Origin: Chrysoperla carnea
Taxonomy: Eukaryota > Arthropoda > Insecta > Neuroptera > Chrysopidae
Length of the DNA: 64,000 bases
Direction of reading: 5' to 3'
NCBI RefSeq assembly: GCF_905475395.1
Contig: NC_058339.1
Coordinates: 92,080,520 to 92,144,519, forward strand
The translations under genes and the position numbers were made by a program. Under the pieces are notes generated by a model. The model ran no database searches. It worked only from the letters and a program-made list of their open reading frames with translations, and was not told where the DNA came from. Below, piece after piece: positions 17,396 to 58,110 of the stretch (position 1 is the stretch's first letter; every line of letters starts with the position of its first letter).

Positions 17396-17486
17396 TGGAA
17401 ATGGCTCCAACGATGAAAATGAGTATGTAGGGGTTTTTTGGGGCGATAAGTCGATCTAACAAGGTTTCATGTTAAAAAAACGTCGT
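17396..17486 (+). repeat. Composite repeat CR, segment A (left part)
   Basis: The block ATGGCTCCAACGATGAAAAT to AACAAGGTTTCATGTTAA, with GTAGGGGTTTTTTGGGGCGA inside, is found in inverse orientation at 23834-23925. There it runs directly into the segment that corresponds to 18457-18641. Here the two segments are about 970 bp apart, with a mariner relic between them. Confidence 0.7.
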
Positions 17487-17507
17487 TCACGTCAAAAACG
17501 TCGGAAA

Positions 17508-17875
17508 GGTCCAAAAGCTCGAAAGGTGATTCACTATAACTTTCTGCAAACAGGCCAAATCATCACAGCCAAGTGCTTTTGTAAGGAAATCGACGAAATG
17601 TACCGAAAATTGCATCTGAAAATCACTGTCCGAAAATTAAACGTTCTACCTTACCCACCATACTCCACAAACATCTCGCCAACCGACTTCCATCTTTTCA
17701 ATCACTTCGGTAACTTTCTTACCGATAGAACCTTCGCCAATCAAGACCAAGCAAAAACAACCTTCGTCGACTTCATAGAATCCCGAGCAAACAATTTTTA
17801 TGCCAACGGAATTAATCGACTTGTGTTTTATAAAAACGGACAAAACTTTTGGAACCACCAATACTATGAACCTTA
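17508..17875 (+). pseudogene. Mariner transposase C-terminal fragment 2
   Basis: An open frame of about 120 residues matches the C-terminal half of mariner transposase: VIHYNFLQTGQIITA, the EIDEMYRKL segment, PPYSTNISPTDFHLF with the third catalytic aspartate, a linker FVDFIESRANNFYANGI and the C-terminus ending FWNHQYYEP. A normal mariner transposase is about 345 aa, so the first half, with the HTH domain and the first two catalytic aspartates, is gone. The stop is intact but no TIRs were found. Fragment 1 at 16.5 kb belongs to the same family. Confidence 0.75.
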
Positions 17876-19675: not shown

Positions 19676-20612
19676 AACAAAAAATCGAAAAAAATTTATG
19701 GTTTCTGATTTGAATGAAACTTAGTATATAAGGTAATTTTGACCCAAAAAATTCAAAAATCGTATTCATTTGATGATTGGAAGCATAGTTGTTGAAATAT
19801 CACCCATTATCCCATATTTTGGCTCGATATCTCCGAAACTAGTTTCCTAATCGTTATATAAATACGATTTTTGTAAATTATGGGTCAAAATTACCTTATA
19901 AACAGAGTTTTATCGAAATCGGAGCCAACATTTTTTTTTTCGATTTTTTCGATTTTTGTAAAGGGGTACCCCTTAAAAAAATTCCAAAAAATCGAAAAAA
20001 ATTGATGGTTTCTGATTTGGATAAAACTTAGTATATAAGGTAATTTTGACCCAAAAAATTCAAAAATCGTATTCATTTGATGATTGGAAGCATAGTTTTT
20101 GAAATATCACCCGTTATCCCATATTTTGGCTCGATATCTCCGAAACTAGTTTCCTAATCGTTATATAAATACGATTTTTGTAAATTATGGGTCAAAATTA
20201 CCTTATAAACAGAGTTTTATCGAAATCGGAGCCAACATTTTTTTTCGATTTTTTCGATTTTTGTAAAGGGGTACCCCTTAAAAAAATTCCAAAAAATCGA
20301 AAAAAATTGATGGTTTCTGATTTGGATAAAACTTAGTATATAAGGTAATTTTGACCCAAAAAATTCAAAAATCGTATTCATTTGATGATTGGAAGCATAG
20401 TTGTTGAAATATCACCCATTATCCCATATTTTGGCTCGATATCTCCGAAACTAGTTTCATAATCGTTATATAAATACGATTTTTGTAAATTATGGGTCAA
20501 AATTAACTTATAAACAGAGTTTTATCGAAATCGGAGCCAACATTTTTTTTCGATTTTTTCGATTTTGTATAAAGGGGTACCCCTTAAAAAAATTCCAAAA
20601 AATCGAAAAAAC
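19676..20612. repeat. Satellite: three tandem ~306 bp palindromic units
   Basis: Three units start near 19684, 19990 and 20296. The phrase ATGGTTTCTGATTTG begins at about 19698, 20005 and 20310, giving spacings of 307 and 305 bp. The copies are nearly identical. Each unit is itself an imperfect inverted repeat: the GGTAATTTTGACCC block and the ATCGAAAAA...GATAAAACT block are both mirrored in its second half. A self-complementary AAGGGGTACCCCTT motif marks the unit junctions at about 19966, 20268 and 20573. Confidence 0.85.
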
Positions 20613-28605: not shown

Positions 28606-29179
28606 ATAGTTGTTGCCGGTAAACAGACAGTTGCTTTCAACTAGCTAGTACCTCAATAAATATCGCACGAAAACTAATAAAATAGTAGAGTAATCTTTTC
28701 CTCTTTTTATAAGCTAAATTTTCTATACAAAGTTTTTTTTCTGGGGTGTCAATTTTTCTAGTTAGAGATTAGAGAAAAACTTATGAAAACCGTGATTTTT
28801 ACAATGAAAAACATCGATTTTCAATAGCCAGTAACTGAAAATTATAGACTTTTCGATTTATGCTTTGATGACAGTTTTTGCTTAGAATTTGTCCTACTTT
28901 GGATCCTACCCATAGCCATTTTTAATCTAATCATTTCCTCTCTCTAGCAGAGAAATCTTCCACTCCCTGGGAGAAAGCACTACTCGTTGCCATATTACTG
29001 TTGTTTCCTGGCGTCTTATTTACTTACTTACCCTTAAATTTTCAAGTCAATCGGAGCTATAGGAAAAAATTCAGAGGTTAAATCCTCGTTTACTAGAGTA
29101 TCAAACATATTTGCATACTTGACAAATTAACAGTTTTTTTTTAATTTTTAAATAATTAATAGGGTTTTTTATTCGACAG

Positions 29180-30086
29180 GTACTGGGCAGTAACCAACAT
29201 TGATTATATTCACCAACGCACAGCAAAACGAATTGGTATGATGATCCTTGTCGTGTGGAGTTTAGCTTTTGTGGTTTGTATTGCCCCGATGTTAGGTTGG
29301 AAAGACGATGAATGGGACCATCGAGTAAATAAAGAACTCACTTGTATGGTTAGCCAAGATCTAGGCTACCAAATTTTTGCCACTGCATCCTCCTTTTATC
29401 TACCACTATTAGTTATTCTCATCCTCTATTGGCGAATCTTCCAAACTGCCCGAAAGCGTATACGAAGGCGTCAAGCAACAAGTGGAGGTGCTGGAGGAGC
29501 TGGAGCCCCAAAAAATCCAGCTGCGGGCGGTGTTATTGCGGCTGCTAGTGGTAGTGGAGGAATAGCAGCGGCAGTAGTGACAATCATAGGTCGACCTTTA
29601 CCCACCATATCTGAGACAACAACCGCATTTACAACAGTATCATCTGCGAACACAAGTCCAGAGAAAACATCATTTGCCAATGGGTTAGAGCCAGACCCAC
29701 CTACAACCGATATGGTCTCATATCAACCTCAACAATCTTCCCATCATCATTATCCAGTGAAGAGGAAAAGTAAAGATGCAATGGATTCGAAACGTGAGCG
29801 TAAAGCTGCAAAAACTTTGGCAATAATTACGGGTGCTTTTGTGATGTGTTGGTTACCATTCTTTATAATGGCCATATTGTTACCAGTGTTTCGAACTTGG
29901 ACATTCAACGAATATTTAATGTCGTTTTTTCTATGGTTAGGTTATTTTAATTCAACGTTAAATCCAATTATTTATACAATATTTAGTCCCGAATTTCGAC
30001 AAGCATTCAAACGAATTTTGTGCGGGCGACGTGCCACAGCACGTCGACGAAATCGACACTTTGGTGGTATTAGACATTTTCAATGA
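29180..30086 (+). CDS. 5-HT1: 5-HT1 serotonin receptor, exon coding TM4 to C-terminus
   Basis: This exon continues directly from the DRY motif: YWAVTNIDYIHQRTAKRIG, the second intracellular loop typical of 5-HT1 receptors. Next come TM4, an extracellular loop 2 with Cys (KELTCMVSQDLGYQ), TM5 (SSFYLPLLVILILYWRIF) and a long third intracellular loop (about 150 residues, Gly/Ala-rich then Ser/Thr/Pro-rich). TM6 has the CWLPFF motif, TM7 has NSTLNPIIYTIF (NPxxY), and helix 8 follows with a Cys (RILCGRR) that may be palmitoylated. The large loop 3 and short tail fit Gi-coupled amine receptors. The reading frame stops at TGA 30084-30086, but the same frame stays coding-like afterwards (30087-30317). 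The assignment to the 5-HT1 class rests on the loop 2 and TM5 sequence; 1A and 1B subtypes were not separated. Confidence 0.92.
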
Positions 30087-38134: not shown

Positions 38135-38520
38135 TATATATTAATTTGATAAATTTATTCAGACGTATTCCAAAATATTTCCTAAATAAAAAATATTATT
38201 CGAGTTTTAAAATTTTGAACAAACTTCTATTCCAAAAATTAATGAGCGAACATTCACTTAAAATACCCATACCACCCAGCCTATTATCCGAAATAATTCA
38301 TTTTTAAAATTTTTTTTTTTTTTAATAAATTATTAATAAATAAAATTATATAGGTACTGGAGATACGAGGTATTAATTTTAAAATAAAAATATGAATAAA
38401 TTAATTAATCTTTTAATATTAATAAATGTTATTAAAAATTGTAAATTAAAATATAAATAATTGACTGATTGCAAAAAAAAAAATTATATATATATACAAC
38501 ATATATAATATATATATATA
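38135..38520. other. AT-rich spacer with TA microsatellite
   Basis: A TA-rich tract at about 38485-38520 forms the insertion site of the next element. Confidence 0.6.
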
Positions 38521-39340
38521 CAGGACGTTCTGTCATTAACTGCAGATCGTGGGCCTACAGAATAAGCCCATAAAGACGAAGAAAAAAGTCATTTACCAAT
38601 TTTGGATCTGAGCCCTAATTTGGGCGCTACAGGTATGACAAAAATTGATAAATTAGTAAATTCACTGGTTATCATTCGATAACCAGTAGCCAATGATAAT
38701 CAGTAGATATTAATAAATGTCATTAGATATTATTCAACTAAAGAAGGGGTATGAACTGATTTCAATTGGGTTATATTATTTTGAAAAAAACATTTAAACA
38801 AAACCATTATATTATTTCATTGGTTTGTTCAATTCCCACTTTTTATTATTATTATATTTTTGCAAGAAAACATTACATTATTAGTAAAAAAACAAATTAC
38901 GTCACAAAAAGAGTGTTTTTAATTTAGCGTAAATAAACAAAAAACGCCTTCTTTGTGACGTTATTTGTTTTTTTACTAAGAATCTAATGTTTTCTTGCAA
39001 AAATATAATAATAAAAAAAAGTGGGAATTGACCAAACCAATGAAATAATATAATAGTTTTTTTTAAATGTTTTTTTCAAAATAATATAATCCAATTGAAA
39101 TCAGTTCATACCCCCTTCTTTAGTTGAATATTATCAAATGACATTTATTAATATCTACTGATTATCATTGGCTACTGGTTATCGAATGATAGCCAGTGAA
39201 TTTACCAATTTATCAATTTTTGTCATACCTGTAGCGCCCAAATTAGGGCTCAGATCCAAAATTGGTAAATGACTTTTTCATTCGTCTTTATGAGCTTATT
39301 CCGTTGGCCCACGATCTGCAATTAATAACAGAACGCCCTG
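38521..39340. mobile_element. Near-perfect 820 bp palindrome, TA-site element, member 2
   Basis: The element runs from CAGGACGTTCTGTCATTAAC to GTTATTAAT...AACGCCCTG and is flanked by TA on both sides. The two arms of about 390-400 bp match with few differences over their whole length (for example CAAAATTGGTAAATGACTTT and its inverse). The terminal motif CAGG-CGTTCTGT-ATTAA-TGCAGA is shared with the element at 37084-38134, so the two are one family. The loop lies near 38935. Confidence 0.85.
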
Positions 39341-39635
39341 TATAATATATATATAAATTAATTATTAAATGTAAAATTCTGTTTATTTTTGTATAAATTC
39401 AAAAAAAAAAAAAAACCTAAAGTAAATAAAAAATATATTTAAAAAAACAAAAAGCCTACAAAATTCTAAATTTAAATTAATAAAAATATTAAATATGTCT
39501 GTTAATTAATGTAATTGATTGAGAGTTTTCCATTAAAAGTGTCCGAACTTTAAAGTTATACCAAAGAAGTTGTGCCAATATAATTAATATTGGAAAAATC
39601 ATCATGAAACATTACCTACCTATATTAGTCTGATC

Positions 39636-40879: not shown

Positions 40880-42297
40880 ACTTTTTCAGAAATGTATATT
40901 CAGCTATTCACTCTTGACATCGAACGTACGGGGTGTCCACGAATTGAGAAAGTTCGATAAGAATGTTAATGGTCGTTTAGAAATGTAGATAATTTAAAAC
41001 AGATAATAAGGGAAACGGTTCAATAAAACACTCTCGAAATGGGTAGGAGTGTTTTTAAACAATTTGGTAAAATAACAATTACATGTGGGAACACGAAGGT
41101 GAATACGTTGAGGCAAAAACTAACTGAATATAACTGCTAACAAGGAATGAATTGTTAACGATAGGAATATTTTGAGCACTTCAATTTTAAATTAAATTTT
41201 GCAAATCGTACTTATATAAAAAAAACTTTTAACAAAAAGAAAACCGACTTCAAAAGGAAAACTTTTCCAAAATATATTAAAATGCACTAAAAAGTAAAAA
41301 AATAACGATAATATAATGTAGTTAAATTCTTGTTATTTTTGGAGTCGGTGTCAGCTAAGCTAATGTAAAAAACTGTTCTGTAAGAGTTGTTTCCTTGGCT
41401 GACACCGACTCCAAAAATAACAAGAATTTAACTACATTATATTATCGTTATTTTTTTACTTTTTAGTGCATTTTAATATATTTTGGAAAAGTTTTCCTTT
41501 TGAAGTCGGTTTTCTTTTTGTTAAAAGTTTTTTTATTTTGTGATTTTTAGTGAATCTGAAGTACACTCACTAACTTGTCACTAAAAACAGAATCATCGAA
41601 GTGATATTGAGCTATTCGTCTTATTGTCGTGCAAACTTAATGCAAATTTAAGACTTTTATGGTTTTCTCATGGATGCCGTTGTCACAACTGTACCAAAAT
41701 GAAATGGGACCAAACGGGAAGCACCAGCTTTCAAACAGATAAAGAATCATCAAAATCGGTTCACCCAGTCAAAAGTTCTGAGGTAACAAACATTAAAAAA
41801 AAAAAAAATACAAATTAATCAGTCATCGAAATTAAAATACTTATTTGCTAATTTGAAACATTTATAACAAAATAATTAATACAAAAATTTATTTTACATA
41901 CGTTATGTTACAATTATTATTGTTGATGTAAGTAAGAACAGTTGACGGAAGTAAATCTGCAGTTCGTTTTTGTCTCAACGTATCCACCCTCGTATTCTAT
42001 ACATGTAATTGTTCTTTTACAAAATTGTTTAAATACACTCCTACATATCTGAGAGGAGTGATTTCTTAAACCGTTTCCCGTAATATTTGTTCTAAATTAT
42101 CTACATTTCTAAACGTTCATTAACATTCCTGTCGAACTTTTTCAATTTGTGACATCATGTACATTCGATGTAAAGAATGAATAGCTGAATGCTAATATTT
42201 TCAAAAGCAGAGACTTTTATAAAGAATAACTTTTTTCCGTAAACCTTATAATACAAAAGTTTTCCATATGTAGCCAACTTAAGGTAGACACCCGGTA
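40880..42297. mobile_element. Large inverted-repeat element with a nested palindrome
   Basis: The left arm (about 40900-41140: AGTTCGATAAGAATGTTAAT, AATGTAGATAATTTA, ACAATTACATGT) is mirrored in 41950-42190. The right side ends near 42297 with GTAGACACCCGGTATA, similar to other TA-site elements here. The interior holds the perfect palindrome at 41217-41536 and a fragment at 41590-41780 of a common insect repeat (GCACCAGCTTTCAAACAGAT, ATCATCAAAATCGGTTCACC). Confidence 0.6.
41217..41536. repeat. Perfect palindrome, 139 bp arms
   Basis: The arms 41217-41355 and 41398-41536 appear identical in inverse orientation and carry the AAAACCGACTTCAAAAGGAA motif that is widespread in insect genomes. The loop is 42 bases. 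Lack of arm divergence points to a recent origin or to continuing gene conversion. Confidence 0.85.
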
Positions 42298-45757: not shown

Positions 45758-47059
45758 TTATTGTGGCCGTCTAAAATTTTTACCAGCATATTTAGCAGCC
45801 GCACCTAATTCCTCTTCAATACGTAAAATTTGATTGTATTTGGCACATCGTTCAGAGCGACATGGTGCGCCAGTTTTAATTTGTCCCGTGCTCAAACCCA
45901 CAACTAAATCAGCAATAAATGTATCTTCAGTTTCACCAGAACGATGTGATACCATGGTACCCCAACCATTTTCTTTGGCCAATAAATGTGCTTTAATGGA
46001 TTCAGTAACGGTACCAATTTGATTGACTTTCAAAAGTAAACAATTACATGATTTCTTCTCAATAGCGGTTTGGATACGTTTTGGATTGGTGACAGTTAAA
46101 TCATCACCGACTACTTGAATATTCACGGATGCAGTGAAACTACTCCATGCATCCCAATGATCTTGATCGAAGGGATCTTCAATTGTTGCCAAAGGATATG
46201 AATTCACCAAATTTTGATACAACGATGTCAATTGTTCTACAGTCAACCATTTTGTTGGGTCAGAATTTGGATTTTTAAAGTCCAAATCGTATTTGGATTC
46301 TTTATAGAATTCGGAAGCGGCAACATCCATACCAATTTCAACTTTTCCAGTGTATCCAGCCCGTTCAATAGCTTCTTTTAATAATTCCAAACCTTCGGTG
46401 TTATCTCCAATATTTGGGGCAAAACCACCTTCATCTCCCACAGCTGTCGCATCCAAACCAAATTTACCTTTGATAACATTTTTTAAATTGTGATAAATTT
46501 CTGAGCCCATTTTCATGGCTTCACTGAAACTAGAGGCACCGGTTGGTAAAATCATGAATTCTTGGAAGGCAAGTTTGTTACCAGAATGTGAGCCACCGTT
46601 AATAACATTTAACGCAGGCACTGGTAAAATGAGATTGTTGTTACCGGCTAACGCGGCGATATGCCGGTATAATGGAACACCTTTTTTCGCTGCACCAGCT
46701 TTACATACAGCCATCGATACACCAAGAATTGCATTTGCACCAAACTTTGATTTATTTTCAGTTCCATCTAATTTGATGAGAAATTCATCGATTTCCGTTT
46801 GTTGGGTGACTTCAAAATTTTGTTTCAATAATTCTGGAGCAATACATTTATTAACATTATCCACAGCTTTTGTTACACCTTTGCCCATATAATGTTCTTT
46901 GATTTGATCACGTAATTCTAAAGCTTCATGTACACCAGTACTGGCACCGGATGGAACAGCCGCACGAAATAATCCTAAATCGGTGACAAGGTCAACTTCA
47001 ACAGTTGGATTACCACGGGAATCGTAAATTTGACGGGCGTATACACTTTTAATCGGCAT
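45758..47059 (-). CDS. Eno: Enolase (phosphopyruvate hydratase)
   Basis: The product is a complete 433 aa enolase, the usual length in animals, in a single coding exon. It converts 2-phosphoglycerate to phosphoenolpyruvate in glycolysis in the cytosol, as a Mg2+-dependent dimer. The N-terminal domain contains the mobile loop PSGASTG near residue 40. The barrel domain carries the His of NGGSHSGNK, the catalytic Glu of GDEGGFAP, the Mg ligands in EIGMD, IEDPFDQ and VGDDL, the catalytic Lys in [14 protein letters not shown] (the family signature) and the Lys of GQIKTGAP. The loop [13 protein letters not shown] differs by two conservative changes from the usual SHAGNKLAMQEFM. The start Met is followed by the standard insect opening ([16 protein letters not shown]). 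A 5' UTR acceptor lies just upstream. Confidence 0.97.
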
Positions 47060-47093
47060 TTTTGTTGCTGTGTATGTTCGAAATGATTGTGTC
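47060..47093 (-). other. Eno: Enolase 5' UTR part of the coding exon, with acceptor
   Basis: On the - strand the sequence TTTTGTTTTTAG ends at 47094 and fits a splice acceptor 34 bases before the ATG. An upstream non-coding first exon is therefore likely, but it could not be located. Confidence 0.6.
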
Positions 47094-47853
47094 CTAAAAA
47101 CAAAATAAATTTTATTTAAATAAGAACAGAAATTTTCGTATTTTTTTCAGCCAGAAAACATGTCAAAAACAAAACAATTTTGAATTATAAATTTTTACCA
47201 CAAAAAACGTGATCTTCGTAAAATGGAAAACATGTTTAAAAAATATAACAAAAAAAAATTAATAAAATAGAAAATGCTTACAAAATAAAATGAAAAATTA
47301 AAAAATTTGTCGAGGAACTTCGTTGGTGTGCGGTTTGTACTGATATGAGTTGCTAGTGTTCATAGATGCTAATAAGGGCACGTCGGACAATGTCAAATCA
47401 AGGTGAAACTATGGTGAGGCATTTACTGAAGCTTTGGATCCCCCTATTTTCATTTTCTTTTAGTTTGTAAGAGAAAATAAAGAAAACTTCATTTGAACAC
47501 TTTGCAGTAACCTTTATTAGAAGTTTACAAGTACGAAAATAGATGTCACTAGTTTGGAAAATATATTTTTACAGGATATTAAATATAAATCTCTAATACA
47601 GTGAGGGATGTCGCTTTACGGGTCACTTTAAAGAATAATATGTCGGATAAAATGAAAACTACAACTTTTCAAAAAAAATTTGCCATCTATCGGCTTGGAG
47701 GTCGAAGTACTTTTAATTTAGCAAGGTATTCCACCAAATATATTGGATAATTATTGGCATTTAATTTGTATTTTTGGGGTATTTAACTTATGAAACCTTT
47801 TGAATTGTATTTTAATTGTACTTTGTTAATGTCTGTATGGTAATTGCTAAAGT
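47094..47853. other. Presumed upstream region or UTR intron of enolase
   Basis: AT-rich, no recognisable exon. Confidence 0.45.
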
Positions 47854-48461
47854 CAGTTTGAAAAAAAAAATTTATTTATCGCATACAATAAATGAAATAA
47901 TATAAATTTACATATATTTTTCTATTAGTAGCTTATTTGAAATACATAATTTAACAAATTCAATTACGTAAAAATCTCTGAAAACGACAATTAACGTCCC
48001 CCACCCTTCTTCCGGAACTTTCTCCAAGTTCCCTAAATTTTTTTTCATTTACTTGTAAATTGTATTAAATTTCCCACCAACTATATACAACCAAGAATTT
48101 TTCTTCAATTCGGAATTTCAAAATTGGTTTAGCCCTGAACTATATTAGATTAAGCGTCCTAACTGAATAAGTAATCAGTTTACAAAACAATTCGTTATAG
48201 GGCCAATTCAGCAGGTATGGCTCGATCAAGGGCTTACTTATGTTGGGTAAGAAATCCAACAGCTGAATGTTTGCCGGTGTAGAGGGGTAGCGTTTAAAGG
48301 GTTGGCAAACGGTTTTTTGCGATTTACGGCGTAAATACTCGTCCTATCAAACAAAGTTAAATGTAATAGTTCTAGACAGTAAACAAATCTCGAAATTTTA
48401 TTTTTATCATTTTTTAACGTAACCTTAAATTTTTCGAGTGAAATACCCTGGTTTTTTTGTT
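47854..48461. repeat. Duplicated segment B, left copy (608 bp)
   Basis: No difference was seen from 49566-50173, at an offset of 1,712 bp. It starts at CAGTTTGAAAAAAAAAATTT and ends at GGTTTTTTTGTT. It is non-coding apart from the fortuitous extension of the frame that enters from segment A. Confidence 0.9.
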
Positions 48462-49567
48462 GAACATACGGTTTTGTGTCGGCTCCTAATTTTATACTAA
48501 TCTCACCAATCGCCCAAGTGGCATTATTACATACGGATATAAATTCAGGATTTAAATTTTGTCCCAATATCGGTAAGAATTCCGATATACAGGGTAGGAC
48601 ATGTTGAAAACATGCTTTTGTTAAATCACCTAATAATGCAAACGAAGATTGTCGTACTTCCGGCATTGGATCTTGCATACATGAAAATAATAAATGCATA
48701 ATATTACTATTCGCAACCAATTTATCAATATGGCCGTCTAAACCCTCGGTTAACCCCGATAGTAAATCCAAAGCCACAATCATAAAATCTTTATCCGGCG
48801 GTTCAAATTGTTCGGGATTTTGTGTATTCGCTATAAATTGATTTAACGTTTGTTCAATTAGAGAAATACAACGTCGAAAAACCGGTTCACAATACGGTAA
48901 AAATCCCGATTGTAAAGCGGTTGCAACACTCGACAAACATTCAAGTAATGGAAATAAATCCTTATCTTCATCTTTCAACATATTCCATTTTTTAATTAAC
49001 GGAGGCATTAACAGATTAATATATTCGGGTTTATTTAAATGATGTCCAACGGAATCCGCTAAAGTTCCAATCGCATCGTATAAGATTAATAAATTTTTAT
49101 GTTGATATTTACCAAAAGCAAATACCAAAGTTTCTAAAATAAAACCTAAATATGGAACTAATTCGGTACAAGCTTCTTCTTCAATTGTTGCGAATGCAGA
49201 ACATGCAGCTTCTTGAACCCGTTTATTCGGATCTAAAATCCGTTTTAATAATTCCGTTAATAACGGTTTTAAATATTGATCATGTGGTTGTGTTAGAACC
49301 CAATGCGCATATCGACTCAAGGTCCAACAAGTGATTGCACGAACTAACGCTTTTTTATCACTTAAACAATTTATTAAATATGGTATTAAATCAGTTAAAT
49401 GATTTACCATTCCCGTCATACAACCTTCGGCGATTGCACCTAAGGCTAAAATACCCGATTCCTTAACAATCCACGATCGATGAAAGAGTGTTTCTTTTAA
49501 AATTGGTATCAAAACCGGTAATAAATCTTCACGGAATACATTCGCAAGAACATCCAGGGCAGCTGCA
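48462..49567 (-). pseudogene. Partial second copy of transportin exon 2 (segment A)
   Basis: 1,106 bp match 53105-54210 with no difference that I could see; the translated parts are the same residue for residue. The segment covers roughly residues 396-764 of transportin (HEAT repeats of the middle and C-terminal arch). It has no start codon, no splice signals and no C-terminus. Downstream the frame runs about 75 codons into segment B and stops at 48238. It keeps the orientation of the parent gene and lies 3' of it. Because the parent segment lies within one exon, the absence of introns says nothing about an RNA origin. It is either a very recent duplication or an assembly artefact. Confidence 0.85.
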
Positions 49568-50173
49568 GTTTGAAAAAAAAAATTTATTTATCGCATACAA
49601 TAAATGAAATAATATAAATTTACATATATTTTTCTATTAGTAGCTTATTTGAAATACATAATTTAACAAATTCAATTACGTAAAAATCTCTGAAAACGAC
49701 AATTAACGTCCCCCACCCTTCTTCCGGAACTTTCTCCAAGTTCCCTAAATTTTTTTTCATTTACTTGTAAATTGTATTAAATTTCCCACCAACTATATAC
49801 AACCAAGAATTTTTCTTCAATTCGGAATTTCAAAATTGGTTTAGCCCTGAACTATATTAGATTAAGCGTCCTAACTGAATAAGTAATCAGTTTACAAAAC
49901 AATTCGTTATAGGGCCAATTCAGCAGGTATGGCTCGATCAAGGGCTTACTTATGTTGGGTAAGAAATCCAACAGCTGAATGTTTGCCGGTGTAGAGGGGT
50001 AGCGTTTAAAGGGTTGGCAAACGGTTTTTTGCGATTTACGGCGTAAATACTCGTCCTATCAAACAAAGTTAAATGTAATAGTTCTAGACAGTAAACAAAT
50101 CTCGAAATTTTATTTTTATCATTTTTTAACGTAACCTTAAATTTTTCGAGTGAAATACCCTGGTTTTTTTGTT
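49566..50173. repeat. Duplicated segment B, right copy (608 bp)
   Basis: The same sequence as 47854-48461, joined to segment A with a CA overlap. It is followed at 50174 by sequence unlike anything after the left copy, so this is the outer edge of the duplication. Confidence 0.9.
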
Positions 50174-51846
50174 TTTTTCTATGTTCAGAAATAGAAAAAA
50201 AGTCCTTTTTTACAGTCGCTCAAAACAGTTGTTTTTTTTTTTATTCAAGACATATGAATAATAAGAAAATAAAATCTGGAAAAAAAATAAATAATGAAAA
50301 ACCAAATGAAAAGTTGAAAACAAGAATGAATTTCAGTCTTTATTCAAATATTTCAAAATCTACACTGATAACATAAAATAAACTTTTTTTTTAATTTAGC
50401 CGTGAAATTGTAAATATAATTAAAAAAAAAGGCCCATATTTTTAAATAATAAATAATTAACTAATTAGAAAAACACCTGTTTTTATATAAATAAAAAGAC
50501 AGTAGCTACGTAATAAATAAATGGAAAAAGCGATAAATATACTTTTTAAAAGCAATTAAAGAGTGTGATTTCATCAACATGATTAAAAAGTCATAAAAAT
50601 GATATTTAAAAAGAAATTCAACAAAAAATTTTACTCATAATTTGTCCAAAACAGATGTTTCTCTAATTTGTGTAAACCAAATGAATTATGAGACCTTACC
50701 ATGATAAAAAAATATTACCATCTCGATGTTTTTCAATTAAAGTTATGATCAAAAATTTGTGAATTTTACTAGTTCGTGTGAAAGCTTCTTTTTTTTTTTG
50801 TACTTCAAATTTTATTAAAAAAAATAATTAACTTCAATTTGAAAAATCGAGATTCGTTCATTTATTTTAGAAACAAAAATTTGATTCGTATCTTTTTATT
50901 TTTTTTTTTTATAAATTATTTCCTAAAAGTTCTAAACTCTGAAAGCGTTTTAGAAATGTTTGATTTGTTTGTAATCCATTCTAGAATTATGAGTTAAATA
51001 TTTTGAAAACTCAAAAAAATAATAGTAAGGGGGCTGTTGGCAGAAATTTTTTTTAATGATTTCATAGTTTCGCAGAAGTTGATTAAAATTTAAACTTAAT
51101 TAAACATGAAGAGTGTAAATAACATTTTAATGCTGCTGTATTTATTTTAAAGGATGAATTTCCAAAAATCCTTTCTAAAAAGACACCTACCGTATAAAAT
51201 TAATATTCTCTCCCCCTCCAGATTATTTCCCCCCTATAAAATGTTTCTGATTTTAAATAATATACAAAAAGAATCATTTTGAAAAAAAAAAATCAAAATC
51301 GAAGCTGTTATTGAGGACTCCCTAAGAATGGCTATTTTATGTATTCCTATGTATTCCTTTATCCGACTGTAAATTGTCGGGTGCAATAGTGTGAGACTTT
51401 CTCTCATCACAAGGAAAATGATTGTGATACGAAAGACGACCGAGTCTAGAAGGGTTAAAACATTTTTTTTTTTAGATATCCTTATTAACGAGAACAGCGA
51501 AATCATTTATCAAAATTCCCATCAGCCCCCTAGCTATAAAAGTGACTTCTACAAAACTAATTTGATAATCATAATTTTTTATTGTAAATGTAATGTAGCG
51601 TTCAGTTTAAGTACAATTTACTTCTCAAATCTTAGATTACAGGTTTTTTTTGTTTTTTAATATAAAATTTTTATTTATTTGAACCGAGTACAAATACATT
51701 AACAATAAGCCTTGTTCTAAGAGAGTGGTGCTATTTGGATGAATATTACACGCGGTTATTTTTCTCCAAAAAAATTGAATCCCCATGTATGGAATGAATT
51801 AAAAATTCTTGTTTAAGATCATTTTCAAATATTTAGGATCATCATA
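50174..51846. other. AT-rich intergenic DNA
   Basis: Long A/T runs; no exon or complete element was recognised. Confidence 0.5.
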
Positions 51847-52164
51847 CACCCGGTCTTTGATTCACACTTTCGCATAATGCCTCTCACGAGTATGAGAGAG
51901 TACATACATACGTATACATTAAATAATGTGTATAAGAAAGATATATTATTCTATGTGTCCTTGTACGTGTTGTAGCTTCGGTACGAATGGGAGTTTGATC
52001 AGTTTTGAGTTGTGTGACAGTTCGTTACTATGCTAGTTAGAAAAATGCCTTAAATTTAAAATTTAGGCTTCTAGGCCAGAATCCCCCCCATTACTGCAGA
52101 CATATGTATGTACTCTTTCATACTCGTGGAATGCAATATGCGAAAATGTGAATCAAACACCCGG
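51847..52164. mobile_element. MITE with ACCCGG ends and TA target site
   Basis: The left end CACCCGGTCTTTGATTCACA and the inverse of the right end (TGTGAATCAAACACCCGG) are about 35 bp TIRs flanked by TA. The subterminal parts CACGAGTATGAGAGAGTACA and its inverse also match. There is no coding capacity. Confidence 0.7.
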
Positions 52165-52673
52165 TATAATTTTTTTTTACATTTTTTGGAAGCCCTAAAT
52201 AACGAAACTAGAAACAATATTTTTTTTAAAAAAAGAAACAAGACGCATTTTTTTTTTGGACAATGATGTAATATTCAGTTTTATTTAGTACCGTCTAATT
52301 GAAAATTATATAATTGTGTAGCGATGTTTTTCATTTCAATAGAAAAATACCAAGTGTTTTAAGACAAAGTGTCACATATTTAAAAAAAGAAAAAAGTTAA
52401 CCCCCCGACGCGATGGCAAAATGAAACGGTTCAATCACATACCACTATGATTATGATACAAATAAACACTGAATTATTGGTTACAGAAAATACCTGAAGC
52501 AACAGGCACAAACCCAACAATATAACAAGACGAATTTCCAACATGCTACATAATTCCCCCGATGCCTATATGATTTTTTTGTTCCCCCGCGCGCGATTAC
52601 GACACAACCCCGAGAGCCTGTCGCGGTACCGATCTACATCCCCAACGTGTATACAATGTATTGATTCCCTCTT
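52165..52673. other. 3' flank of transportin
   Basis: No gene. This presumably includes the Tnpo 3' UTR, since TTTATT (AATAAA on the - strand) occurs near 52280, but many AT-rich matches exist. Confidence 0.4.
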
Positions 52674-54337
52674 TCAGACCCCGTATAGTGTGGTTAATCG
52701 TTCGCTTAATTGTGGTGGAAATTGATCACTAAATCTCTTCCAATTATCATCACCGACTTGAGCTTTGAAACCATGTAAAATTTTACTGAACATATCTTTT
52801 AAATCGTCCCCAGGTGCGACCCATGAAGCGAGTGCATCACAGAAAAATATAAAATCATTTACAACACCACCGGGATTCACGCTAACCATTTGACACATAC
52901 CACGAAACGCGCTATCTTTTTCAGCATTATCACGAATATTACGTAACGAAGTACACCACGGTCGAACGAATTGTTGTAACAATGGTGCGACCTCGTAGGG
53001 ACAAACATATCCAAGACGACCGATCGTAATTGCGGTATTTTCTAATAAAGTTTTTGGCATATTTGGTCGATTTATTATTTCAATCAGTTGTGCTAATACT
53101 AATGGAACATACGGTTTTGTGTCGGCTCCTAATTTTATACTAATCTCACCAATCGCCCAAGTGGCATTATTACATACGGATATAAATTCAGGATTTAAAT
53201 TTTGTCCCAATATCGGTAAGAATTCCGATATACAGGGTAGGACATGTTGAAAACATGCTTTTGTTAAATCACCTAATAATGCAAACGAAGATTGTCGTAC
53301 TTCCGGCATTGGATCTTGCATACATGAAAATAATAAATGCATAATATTACTATTCGCAACCAATTTATCAATATGGCCGTCTAAACCCTCGGTTAACCCC
53401 GATAGTAAATCCAAAGCCACAATCATAAAATCTTTATCCGGCGGTTCAAATTGTTCGGGATTTTGTGTATTCGCTATAAATTGATTTAACGTTTGTTCAA
53501 TTAGAGAAATACAACGTCGAAAAACCGGTTCACAATACGGTAAAAATCCCGATTGTAAAGCGGTTGCAACACTCGACAAACATTCAAGTAATGGAAATAA
53601 ATCCTTATCTTCATCTTTCAACATATTCCATTTTTTAATTAACGGAGGCATTAACAGATTAATATATTCGGGTTTATTTAAATGATGTCCAACGGAATCC
53701 GCTAAAGTTCCAATCGCATCGTATAAGATTAATAAATTTTTATGTTGATATTTACCAAAAGCAAATACCAAAGTTTCTAAAATAAAACCTAAATATGGAA
53801 CTAATTCGGTACAAGCTTCTTCTTCAATTGTTGCGAATGCAGAACATGCAGCTTCTTGAACCCGTTTATTCGGATCTAAAATCCGTTTTAATAATTCCGT
53901 TAATAACGGTTTTAAATATTGATCATGTGGTTGTGTTAGAACCCAATGCGCATATCGACTCAAGGTCCAACAAGTGATTGCACGAACTAACGCTTTTTTA
54001 TCACTTAAACAATTTATTAAATATGGTATTAAATCAGTTAAATGATTTACCATTCCCGTCATACAACCTTCGGCGATTGCACCTAAGGCTAAAATACCCG
54101 ATTCCTTAACAATCCACGATCGATGAAAGAGTGTTTCTTTTAAAATTGGTATCAAAACCGGTAATAAATCTTCACGGAATACATTCGCAAGAACATCCAG
54201 GGCAGCTGCACTACATTTTCGTAAATTCCAATCGGTTAATGAACCATCATCATCTTCACCATCGTAATCGGATTCATCTCCACTATCATGATCACCACCT
54301 GGTGTAGTCATTGTTGCTCCAAACCCCCCACCACCAC
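52674..54337 (-). CDS. Tnpo: Transportin (karyopherin beta-2), coding exon 2
   Basis: This exon codes residues 354-907 of transportin, from the end of the acidic loop ([21 protein letters not shown]) through HEAT repeats 9-20 to the typical C-terminal YGV. Transportin is the nuclear import receptor for PY-NLS cargoes such as hnRNP proteins; the C-terminal arch encoded here holds the cargo and the loop releases it on RanGTP binding. Conserved blocks include [65 protein letters not shown] and [18 protein letters not shown]. The acceptor GTGGTGTTAG precedes 54337 and gives a phase that fits exon 1. An internal 1.1 kb piece (53105-54210) is repeated at 48462-49567. Confidence 0.96.
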
Positions 54338-54784
54338 CTAACACCACAAAATTAAATAAAAAAATCATTCTAATACAGAAAAAAAGGGCTACATCTTTGA
54401 AATTTTCCACAGTTGTTTATTAAGTTGTAAGAACTTTGTAAAAAAAAAATAGACTACTCAAGGGGGGAGAGGCTTAACTCCCTTTTAAAGGGTGGATAGT
54501 TGGAGGGTTTTAAACAGTTTTTAACCTTCTGAGCAACGCAAAGAAGTGGTAATGTGTTTATCAGTCTATGTGTGTTCCTATGTGGCACAATAGAGACCAA
54601 ACACGAGGACTGATTTTGATGATTCGGACGTCAATTGATTTGTAGTAACCTTGCGAGAACTACTGAAGATATTGAGAGGTCGATTTTTTGGTACGAAATT
54701 TTTACCACCTACTAAAACAACTGTGAAAACTTCAAAGATACAAAACCGTTTTTCCTTTGAGATATTTAGTTTCATTGTACTAAC
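54338..54784 (-). other. Tnpo: Transportin intron in the acidic loop (447 bp)
   Basis: The donor GTTAGT follows ...GACGGTG and the acceptor GTGGTGTTAG precedes GTGGTGGTGG. The join gives a Gly-rich stretch at the start of the acidic loop. Bases 54565-54665 are a dispersed repeat fragment that is also found, inverted, at 22645-22745. Confidence 0.85.
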
Positions 54785-55844
54785 CACCGTCTAAATTCGA
54801 ATGTTTATTTGATGAATGTGATTTAGATTTATGAAATCTAGGTCGAATATCTTCTTCTCGATCAGGAATCATTGCATCCTCTTCAACATTCCCTCGTAAT
54901 AGAATTATATCCAAATCAGAATATTTCATACCACAAACTAGAATTGGAACCAACTGTGGTAAATAATTCCCCAGCACCGATTTACAAATTTGTTGTTCGG
55001 CTAAGGAAAGCCAAAATTCACACGCCTCCAATGAAATACTTTCATCGATATCCTGTGTTTGTCGTAACATGTACTCGATTATCGATTGCATGTGTGGTAT
55101 CAAACGATCTAAGGACACTTCTAGAAGCATAACAATTGCCCGACAAACATTCTTTCGAACTTCAGAGTTTTCATCGTTTGATAAATGAAATAAATTCTCT
55201 AAAAACGCGTCAATATGATTCATAAACGCTTGTGTTCGACTAATTATAAATTGATTAACACAACCAATCGCATGCGAACGAATTTTAGCACTATCATGTT
55301 TGAAAAATTGTAAAAATTTTGGTATTAAAATGTTTAATGGACGATTTAACGCGTCACTATCAAGAAGTTCAGCGCTATCTTCACAGATCTTTTGTAAGGC
55401 ACCAAAAGCACCTTCACAAACGTTGTAATCCGTTGATTCAAGCATTTGACACAATGTTGGTAACAATTCAGGCCATGTTGTTAATTCACCTTTACTCGAT
55501 ATCGTTGTTATTAAAATACCGACCGTAGCCCGAATTAACGGTGACGGATCACCAACCGAACTTAAACACTCCGATTTTATAAACTCCGATACTTCTGGTA
55601 GAAAATTATTGTAATGATCTCGAACATTGTTTTTTAATATTAAACCACTTAACGATCGTGTCGATTCATCTTCGTTTGTCATTTTCGTTAACACAAATAT
55701 TAAATAGTTGTTAAAATCTGGAAAAGTATTCAATTCTTCCAGTTTATGTTGAACCATTCTTTGTGTTGCGGTATTTGGTGATTGGGACTCTTTCAATAAA
55801 GTGAGAATTTGTCTCAAACCGTCTTCTTGCGGTTGCCAAGACAT
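54785..55844 (-). CDS. Tnpo: Transportin (karyopherin beta-2), coding exon 1
   Basis: This exon codes residues 1-353 and the first base of codon 354. The N-terminus ([20 protein letters not shown]) matches animal transportin-1 openings, which supports the chosen ATG. Diagnostic blocks are the [15 protein letters not shown] helix, [12 protein letters not shown] (RanGTP-binding arch), [53 protein letters not shown] and the start of the loop ([19 protein letters not shown]). The joined protein of 907 aa is close to the ~890-900 aa usual for the family, so the gene is complete. It sits on the same strand as Prdx5 upstream and enolase downstream, with no shared function. Confidence 0.96.
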
Positions 55845-57715: not shown

Positions 57716-58110
57716 CGGGAACTTTAGAGTTAGCAACCATAGAAATGTGGGAGAGAGATTAAATTTTTTTACAAAACAAGAGGAATGCAAGATCTTGAAA
57801 AAATTGCCGTTTGATTTGGTTAAAATATAAAAAACAAATTGAAGCACAAAAAATTTTATTAAATTGTACAATAACAGTGGAAAAATTGATAACTTAACAA
57901 CAGTGTGATCATAAATTTGGTGGATACTTATTTTTTATACTAATTGTAAAACTAAAAAAAATTGATTGGATCGTTTTCTAAAAATAAGTTTAATTTTTAA
58001 ATCTATATCACATCTAGGATTTAAATTTTAGTTTATTTAAAAAAGTGCCCAACATGAATTATCAATCAAAATCAAAACAACACACGTTGCTTTCTAGAAA
58101 CTTCTAGAAA
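57716..58110. other. 3' flank of Prdx5
   Basis: AT-rich, non-coding; probably 3' UTR and spacer. Confidence 0.5.

Follow-up and report, generated by a model that had tools for sequence, protein, structure and literature searches.

In BRCA1-deficient tumours the cis reciprocal duplication (cis rDup) places a segment copied from another location between direct copies of a host segment, with low-homology junctions, and the pertinent passages of PMC10482687 account for it by replication restart, under a provisional microhomology-mediated BIR model; in the BRCA1-linked cases treated there, the insert was without exception the shorter of the two segments, and distant places were joined in most pairs. 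The templated-insertion cycles and local two-jump events of PCAWG, as set out in sections of PMC7025897, are somatic rearrangements of human cancers in which a template is copied in and the host segment is re-replicated on return, leaving two local junctions with copy gain. A third relevant process is gap-filling capture by Pack-TIR elements, for which portions of PMC8277862 describe repair near a dispersed element of animals that switches to adjacent sequence and takes up neighboring gene fragments as filler. Complex CNVs ascribed to FoSTeS or MMBIR likewise invoke serial template switches, which explain two junctions in one event and have priming by microhomology as their defining feature. 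In Drosophila, according to the relevant part of PMC4056370, CNV ends are mostly blunt or of short homology, and a complex structure was assigned to as many as 12% of CNVs (3 of 26 regions).

Here we describe a locus of Chrysoperla carnea that would fit as an instance of this class, i.e. the cis rDup, templated-insertion cycle or local two-jump. It lies in a window of 64 kb (the whole stretch of DNA analysed, C3:92080520-92144519), where a piece of the second coding exon of a transportin gene, segment A, stands between two direct copies of a 608-bp segment, B. The left copy of B occupies 47854-48461 on the forward strand and is continuous at its left edge with position 47853, while its right edge is the first inner junction (48461|48462). 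Segment A follows at 48462-49567, with its coding sense on the reverse strand and both ends inside the exon, and the right copy of B, again on the forward strand, at 49566-50173; the bases CA at the second inner junction are common to the end of A and the start of this copy. The source of A is retained at 53105-54210 (reverse strand), and in the ancestral order a stretch of 2931 bp (50174-53104), skipped at junction 1, separates B from it. All 608 bases are equal between the two B copies and all 1106 between the two A copies, and the maximal extension of both pairs ends precisely where an earlier note on this DNA had placed them, with sharp edges, so that its account of a B-A-B structure free of differences is confirmed. 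Both junctions are contiguous in the assembly and the window holds no N. The only other exact direct repeats of at least 60 bp in the window are five pairs within a satellite at 19.7-20.6 kb, which excludes a chance origin of the A and B pairs, and B has no further match within the window on either strand. With 1104 bp of A between the copies of B, this is not a simple tandem duplication, in which little or nothing lies between the copies; the layout is that of the cis rDup and the templated-insertion cycle, in that a segment copied from another place separates two direct repeats of the host segment while its source is retained. It differs from the cis rDups covered in the passages of PMC10482687 in that A (1106 bp) is longer than B (608 bp) and its source only 2.9 kb away, and in being found in the reference assembly of an animal rather than in a tumour. 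In contrast to the somatic events in sections of PMC7025897, a single local template in the same orientation would have been used on the kilobase scale. Unlike the Pack-TIR captures described in PMC8277862, no single element supplies inverted repeats on the two sides of A, and the copies of B are direct.

The gene that provided A looks intact, its two open reading frames jointly covering the protein, as far as approximate splice sites allow. The second coding exon with the stop codon spans 52674-54337 on the reverse strand (splice position approximate, read by eye), and the open frame 52677-54416 corresponds to residues 351-890 of Transportin-1 (PDB 2qmr_A, E printed as 0). The first coding exon, which reads from a string of ten protein letters not given here, occupies 54783-55844 on the same strand (3' end approximate) and carries the IBN_N domain. 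The earlier identification of the source as a transportin exon is compatible with these findings. The next gene, on the same strand, encodes enolase (45761-47059, reverse strand; Enolase_N positions 1-131 of 131, Enolase_C 2-294 of 296). The copy of A sits between the transportin stop codon, on its downstream side, and enolase, with B-A-B starting 0.8 kb upstream of the enolase ATG. By eye, a splice-acceptor-like site is seen at 47093, just upstream of the enolase start codon, which raises the possibility of an enolase leader exon at a greater distance upstream, perhaps within or beyond B-A-B. A search of the genome (559,487,470 bases in 337 contigs) placed A perfectly at two sites and found one 77% paralogue on contig C6. 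This paralogue (C6:14630709-14631697) belongs to a second transportin-like gene, has 77% DNA identity to bases 24-1012 of A and contains a 545-codon open frame on the forward strand of the locus. Junction 1, junction 2, the left flank and the right flank each have a single full-length place, and no second haplotype copy of the B-A-B region was found in the 337 contigs.

The dispersed repeats in and around B permit the order of events to be read from the genome itself. Across the left outer edge of B runs a dispersed element (47798-47870, forward strand), of which the right copy of B holds the last 17 bp only. Of the 22 non-self matches listed at this edge, 20 cross it, a lower bound for the repeat since the genome search scores best candidates only, and crossing was confirmed by local BLAST at 17 distinct fetched places. 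Ten copies inspected elsewhere have A-rich tails of differing length, and in light of these tails the element is probably the truncated 3' end of a non-LTR retrotransposon. A second dispersed repeat fills the right part of B (48145-48461), is about 75-89% alike in 12 distinct fetched loci and in a few loci extends into 50174-50245, as in the ancestral order. For the right outer edge, 32 listed non-self matches extend to the B side, and 6 of them continue for 10 bp or more beyond the edge; the other 26 end before the edge or no more than 5 bp beyond, most of them 15-20 bp inside B, and are therefore uninformative about it. Among the 12 distinct fetched loci, local BLAST shows three that continue at least 10 bp beyond 50173, one clearly (L042), one in a separate stretch (L007) and one only via low-complexity A/T-rich sequence (L043). 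By comparison, the fetched non-self loci number 41, with some overlap among them, and not one matches across an inner junction; the match of one locus (L048) terminates exactly at junction 1. Given that dispersed repeats cross the outer edges and none crosses the inner junctions, flank-B-flank is the ancestral order, with the outer edges ancestral and the inner junctions derived; the case for this is strong on the left and moderate on the right. The derived change is an insertion of 1712 bp, comprising A and a second B, and the earlier description of B as duplicated with A as filler gains support from this polarity. Elsewhere in the genome, copies of the repeat in B have inverted arms (365 bp at 75% in L004, 196 bp at 78% in L006, shorter ones in L007 and L042), on which basis a foldback-type element is possible; only a single arm is present in the window.

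The inner junctions themselves say little of mechanism. At junction 1 no base is shared, the G at 48462 belonging to A alone, and at junction 2 the two bases CA (49566-49567) are common, so that of the shared bases claimed earlier, G at one junction and CA at the other, only CA stands. When breakpoints are paired at random within 45-60 kb, 52% of the pairs have 0 bp in common, 28% have 1 bp and 12% have 2 bp, and since such pairs give equal homology, that at the junctions is uninformative on mechanism. Microhomology above chance, as expected for FoSTeS or MMBIR, is thus not seen, in a comparison that has low power with two junctions only. Nor do the junctions show extended imperfect homology, each having 7 matches in 30 positions (P about 0.78). 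An A/T run, 7 or longer, is present within 12 bp of each B breakpoint and of neither A breakpoint, as against 17% of positions in 47061-52676, an association that is post hoc, concerns two breakpoints and is only suggestive.

We lean towards the view that B-A-B is a real, recent and heritable structural change produced by one repair event of the copying type. Replication or gap repair would have proceeded through B and left its template at 48461, whereupon 1106 bp of transportin exon 2 would have been copied from 2.9 kb further on. Synthesis would then have returned, re-priming at the start of B on the two common bases CA, copied B again and continued into the ancestral flank; the same path in reverse would fit equally well. 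Both the origin of the two junctions in a single event and the replicative nature of that event are our inference, and the equal lack of divergence in the A and B pairs fits a single event. Against this model, homologies of 0 and 2 bp are at the level of random ends and give no positive sign of priming by microhomology. The departures from the BRCA1-linked cis rDups, in the greater length of A relative to B and in the nearness of its source, also count against it. The earlier proposal of microhomology-mediated template switching therefore divides into a template-switch origin, with which the locus is compatible, and a role for microhomology, which does not exceed chance and at junction 1 is absent.

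A template switch is also not unique in accounting for the letters observed. Tandem duplication of the 4645 bp at 49566-54210, with CA at the junction, followed by a blunt deletion of 2931 bp in the left copy, is a two-step path that we regard as unlikely, and yet the loss of 50174-53104 from that copy reconstructs 47854-49567 letter for letter, which weakens the earlier inference of template switching. One blunt and one 2-bp junction would be ordinary next to the Drosophila CNVs, which are mostly far smaller and in which, in the part of PMC4056370 concerned, 35% had blunt ends and 41% shared at least 2 bp. Tandem duplications of about 100 bp to 10 kb arise in C. elegans helq-1 mutants, although they are rare in the wild type, according to passages of PMC8654963, and the left copy being redundant, its deletion would presumably be neutral. 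This path demands that one and the same 5 kb be rearranged twice before any base change became fixed in 1714 bp. Since neither pair shows a difference, a second kilobase-scale rearrangement nearby so soon is less likely and one event is preferred, an argument that is drawn from expected rates. A very unlikely path, in our estimate, is end joining at a double-strand break, in which staggered ends of 608 bp were filled in, thereby duplicating B, and a transportin fragment, free or copied, was captured between them. Blunt and 2-bp joints are compatible with it, and precedents exist in rice, where tandem duplications are the commonest source of insertions and are ascribed to the repair of adjacent nicks (PMC7971508, in the sections concerned), and in the fill-in of 3' overhangs by Pol alpha-primase, which according to PMC8355091 yields small tandem duplications. 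Nevertheless, a stagger of 608 bp is long: in the same sections of the rice study (PMC7971508) tandem duplications drop from a 70% share to one of 5% by 200 bp, with the 5% share persisting and perfect tandem duplications reaching 4.9 kb. The filler, moreover, keeps the orientation of a source located 2.9 kb away, and a free fragment need show neither this orientation nor this proximity.

We consider it quite unlikely that B-A-B was created by chimeric molecules in the library, by a local error of assembly or by the misjoin of haplotypes that the earlier note had allowed. Zero divergence in both pairs is what such an origin could leave; false duplications, as parts of PMC9516828 relate, abounded in some earlier assemblies, and a minor "homotype" class of them is devoid of haplotype differences. 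The main class described there, however, involves diverged haplotypes and has gaps between copies as a listed mark, and on examination for these marks we found neither a gap nor any difference between the copies. Junctions of 0 and 2 bp would require an overlap-based join to start from reads that already carried them, and across the 337 contigs each flank has a single full-length place. With junctions that lack homology and a window free of N, the misjoin in particular is judged unlikely, and that part of the earlier reading is disfavoured. Returning to the preferred reading, a single copying event, its age is bounded by 0 differences in 1714 sites, that is, a divergence of at most 0.175% (95%). 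If a rate of 3e-9 per site per generation is assumed, that of Drosophila, which may not apply here, this bound amounts to about 290,000 generations. Judged by this identity the event is young and need not be segregating; "extremely young", as had been suggested, is too strong for data that set no more than this upper bound.

Several other readings of the locus were tried and rejected. A processed retrocopy of transportin does not agree with a segment that starts and ends within one exon and contains no spliced exons, nor do the A/T runs beside A represent a poly(A) tail, as they belong to B and are present in both of its copies. A splicing-type loss of the 2931 bp was rejected by eye, GT being absent at the edge of A on the reverse strand. 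B is not a transposon carrying A, as it ends in two different dispersed elements and its copies are direct. A duplicated enolase promoter is not supported, about 438 of the 608 bp of B (summed) matching dispersed repeats, and a heat-shock-like triplet in B (48010 and 49722; also at 58092) occurs at roughly the chance level, estimated at about one in 64 kb. No RNA families or tRNAs were found within the 64-kb window. Elsewhere in it we observed two large palindromes (38508-39354 and 41219-41534), each 93% identical to its own reverse complement; a local satellite (19678-20611) of about 3 units of 306 bp that are 97-98% alike, and about 76% against its own reverse complement; an exon of a Rhodopsin-family 7-transmembrane receptor (29163-30083; Pfam 7tm_1, E 9.7e-41); and a transposase remnant (17460-17873; Pfam Transposase_1, E 8e-4, below the curated cut-off) that appears mariner-like by eye.

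As to consequences, the copy of A retains an open frame of 449 codons (48241-49587), the outer portions of which derive from B. For this frame neither a context for initiation nor one for splicing was seen, and for that reason a protein would not be expected from it. The structure is most likely functionless, transportin being left whole and the copy appearing as a fragment beyond its stop codon. It is a long shot that such scars recur, with germline breaks that fall in the dispersed elements separating transportin from enolase being repaired by copying kilobase pieces of neighboring genes, which would feed gene fragments upstream of active genes such as enolase. Although a single event and probably without function, B-A-B provides a legible example, in a reference genome, of a type of copying rearrangement that the papers cited here describe mainly from human tumours, one in which dispersed repeats distinguish the ancestral from the derived edges without recourse to an outgroup, and it would be useful for testing a one-step against a two-step origin in a population.
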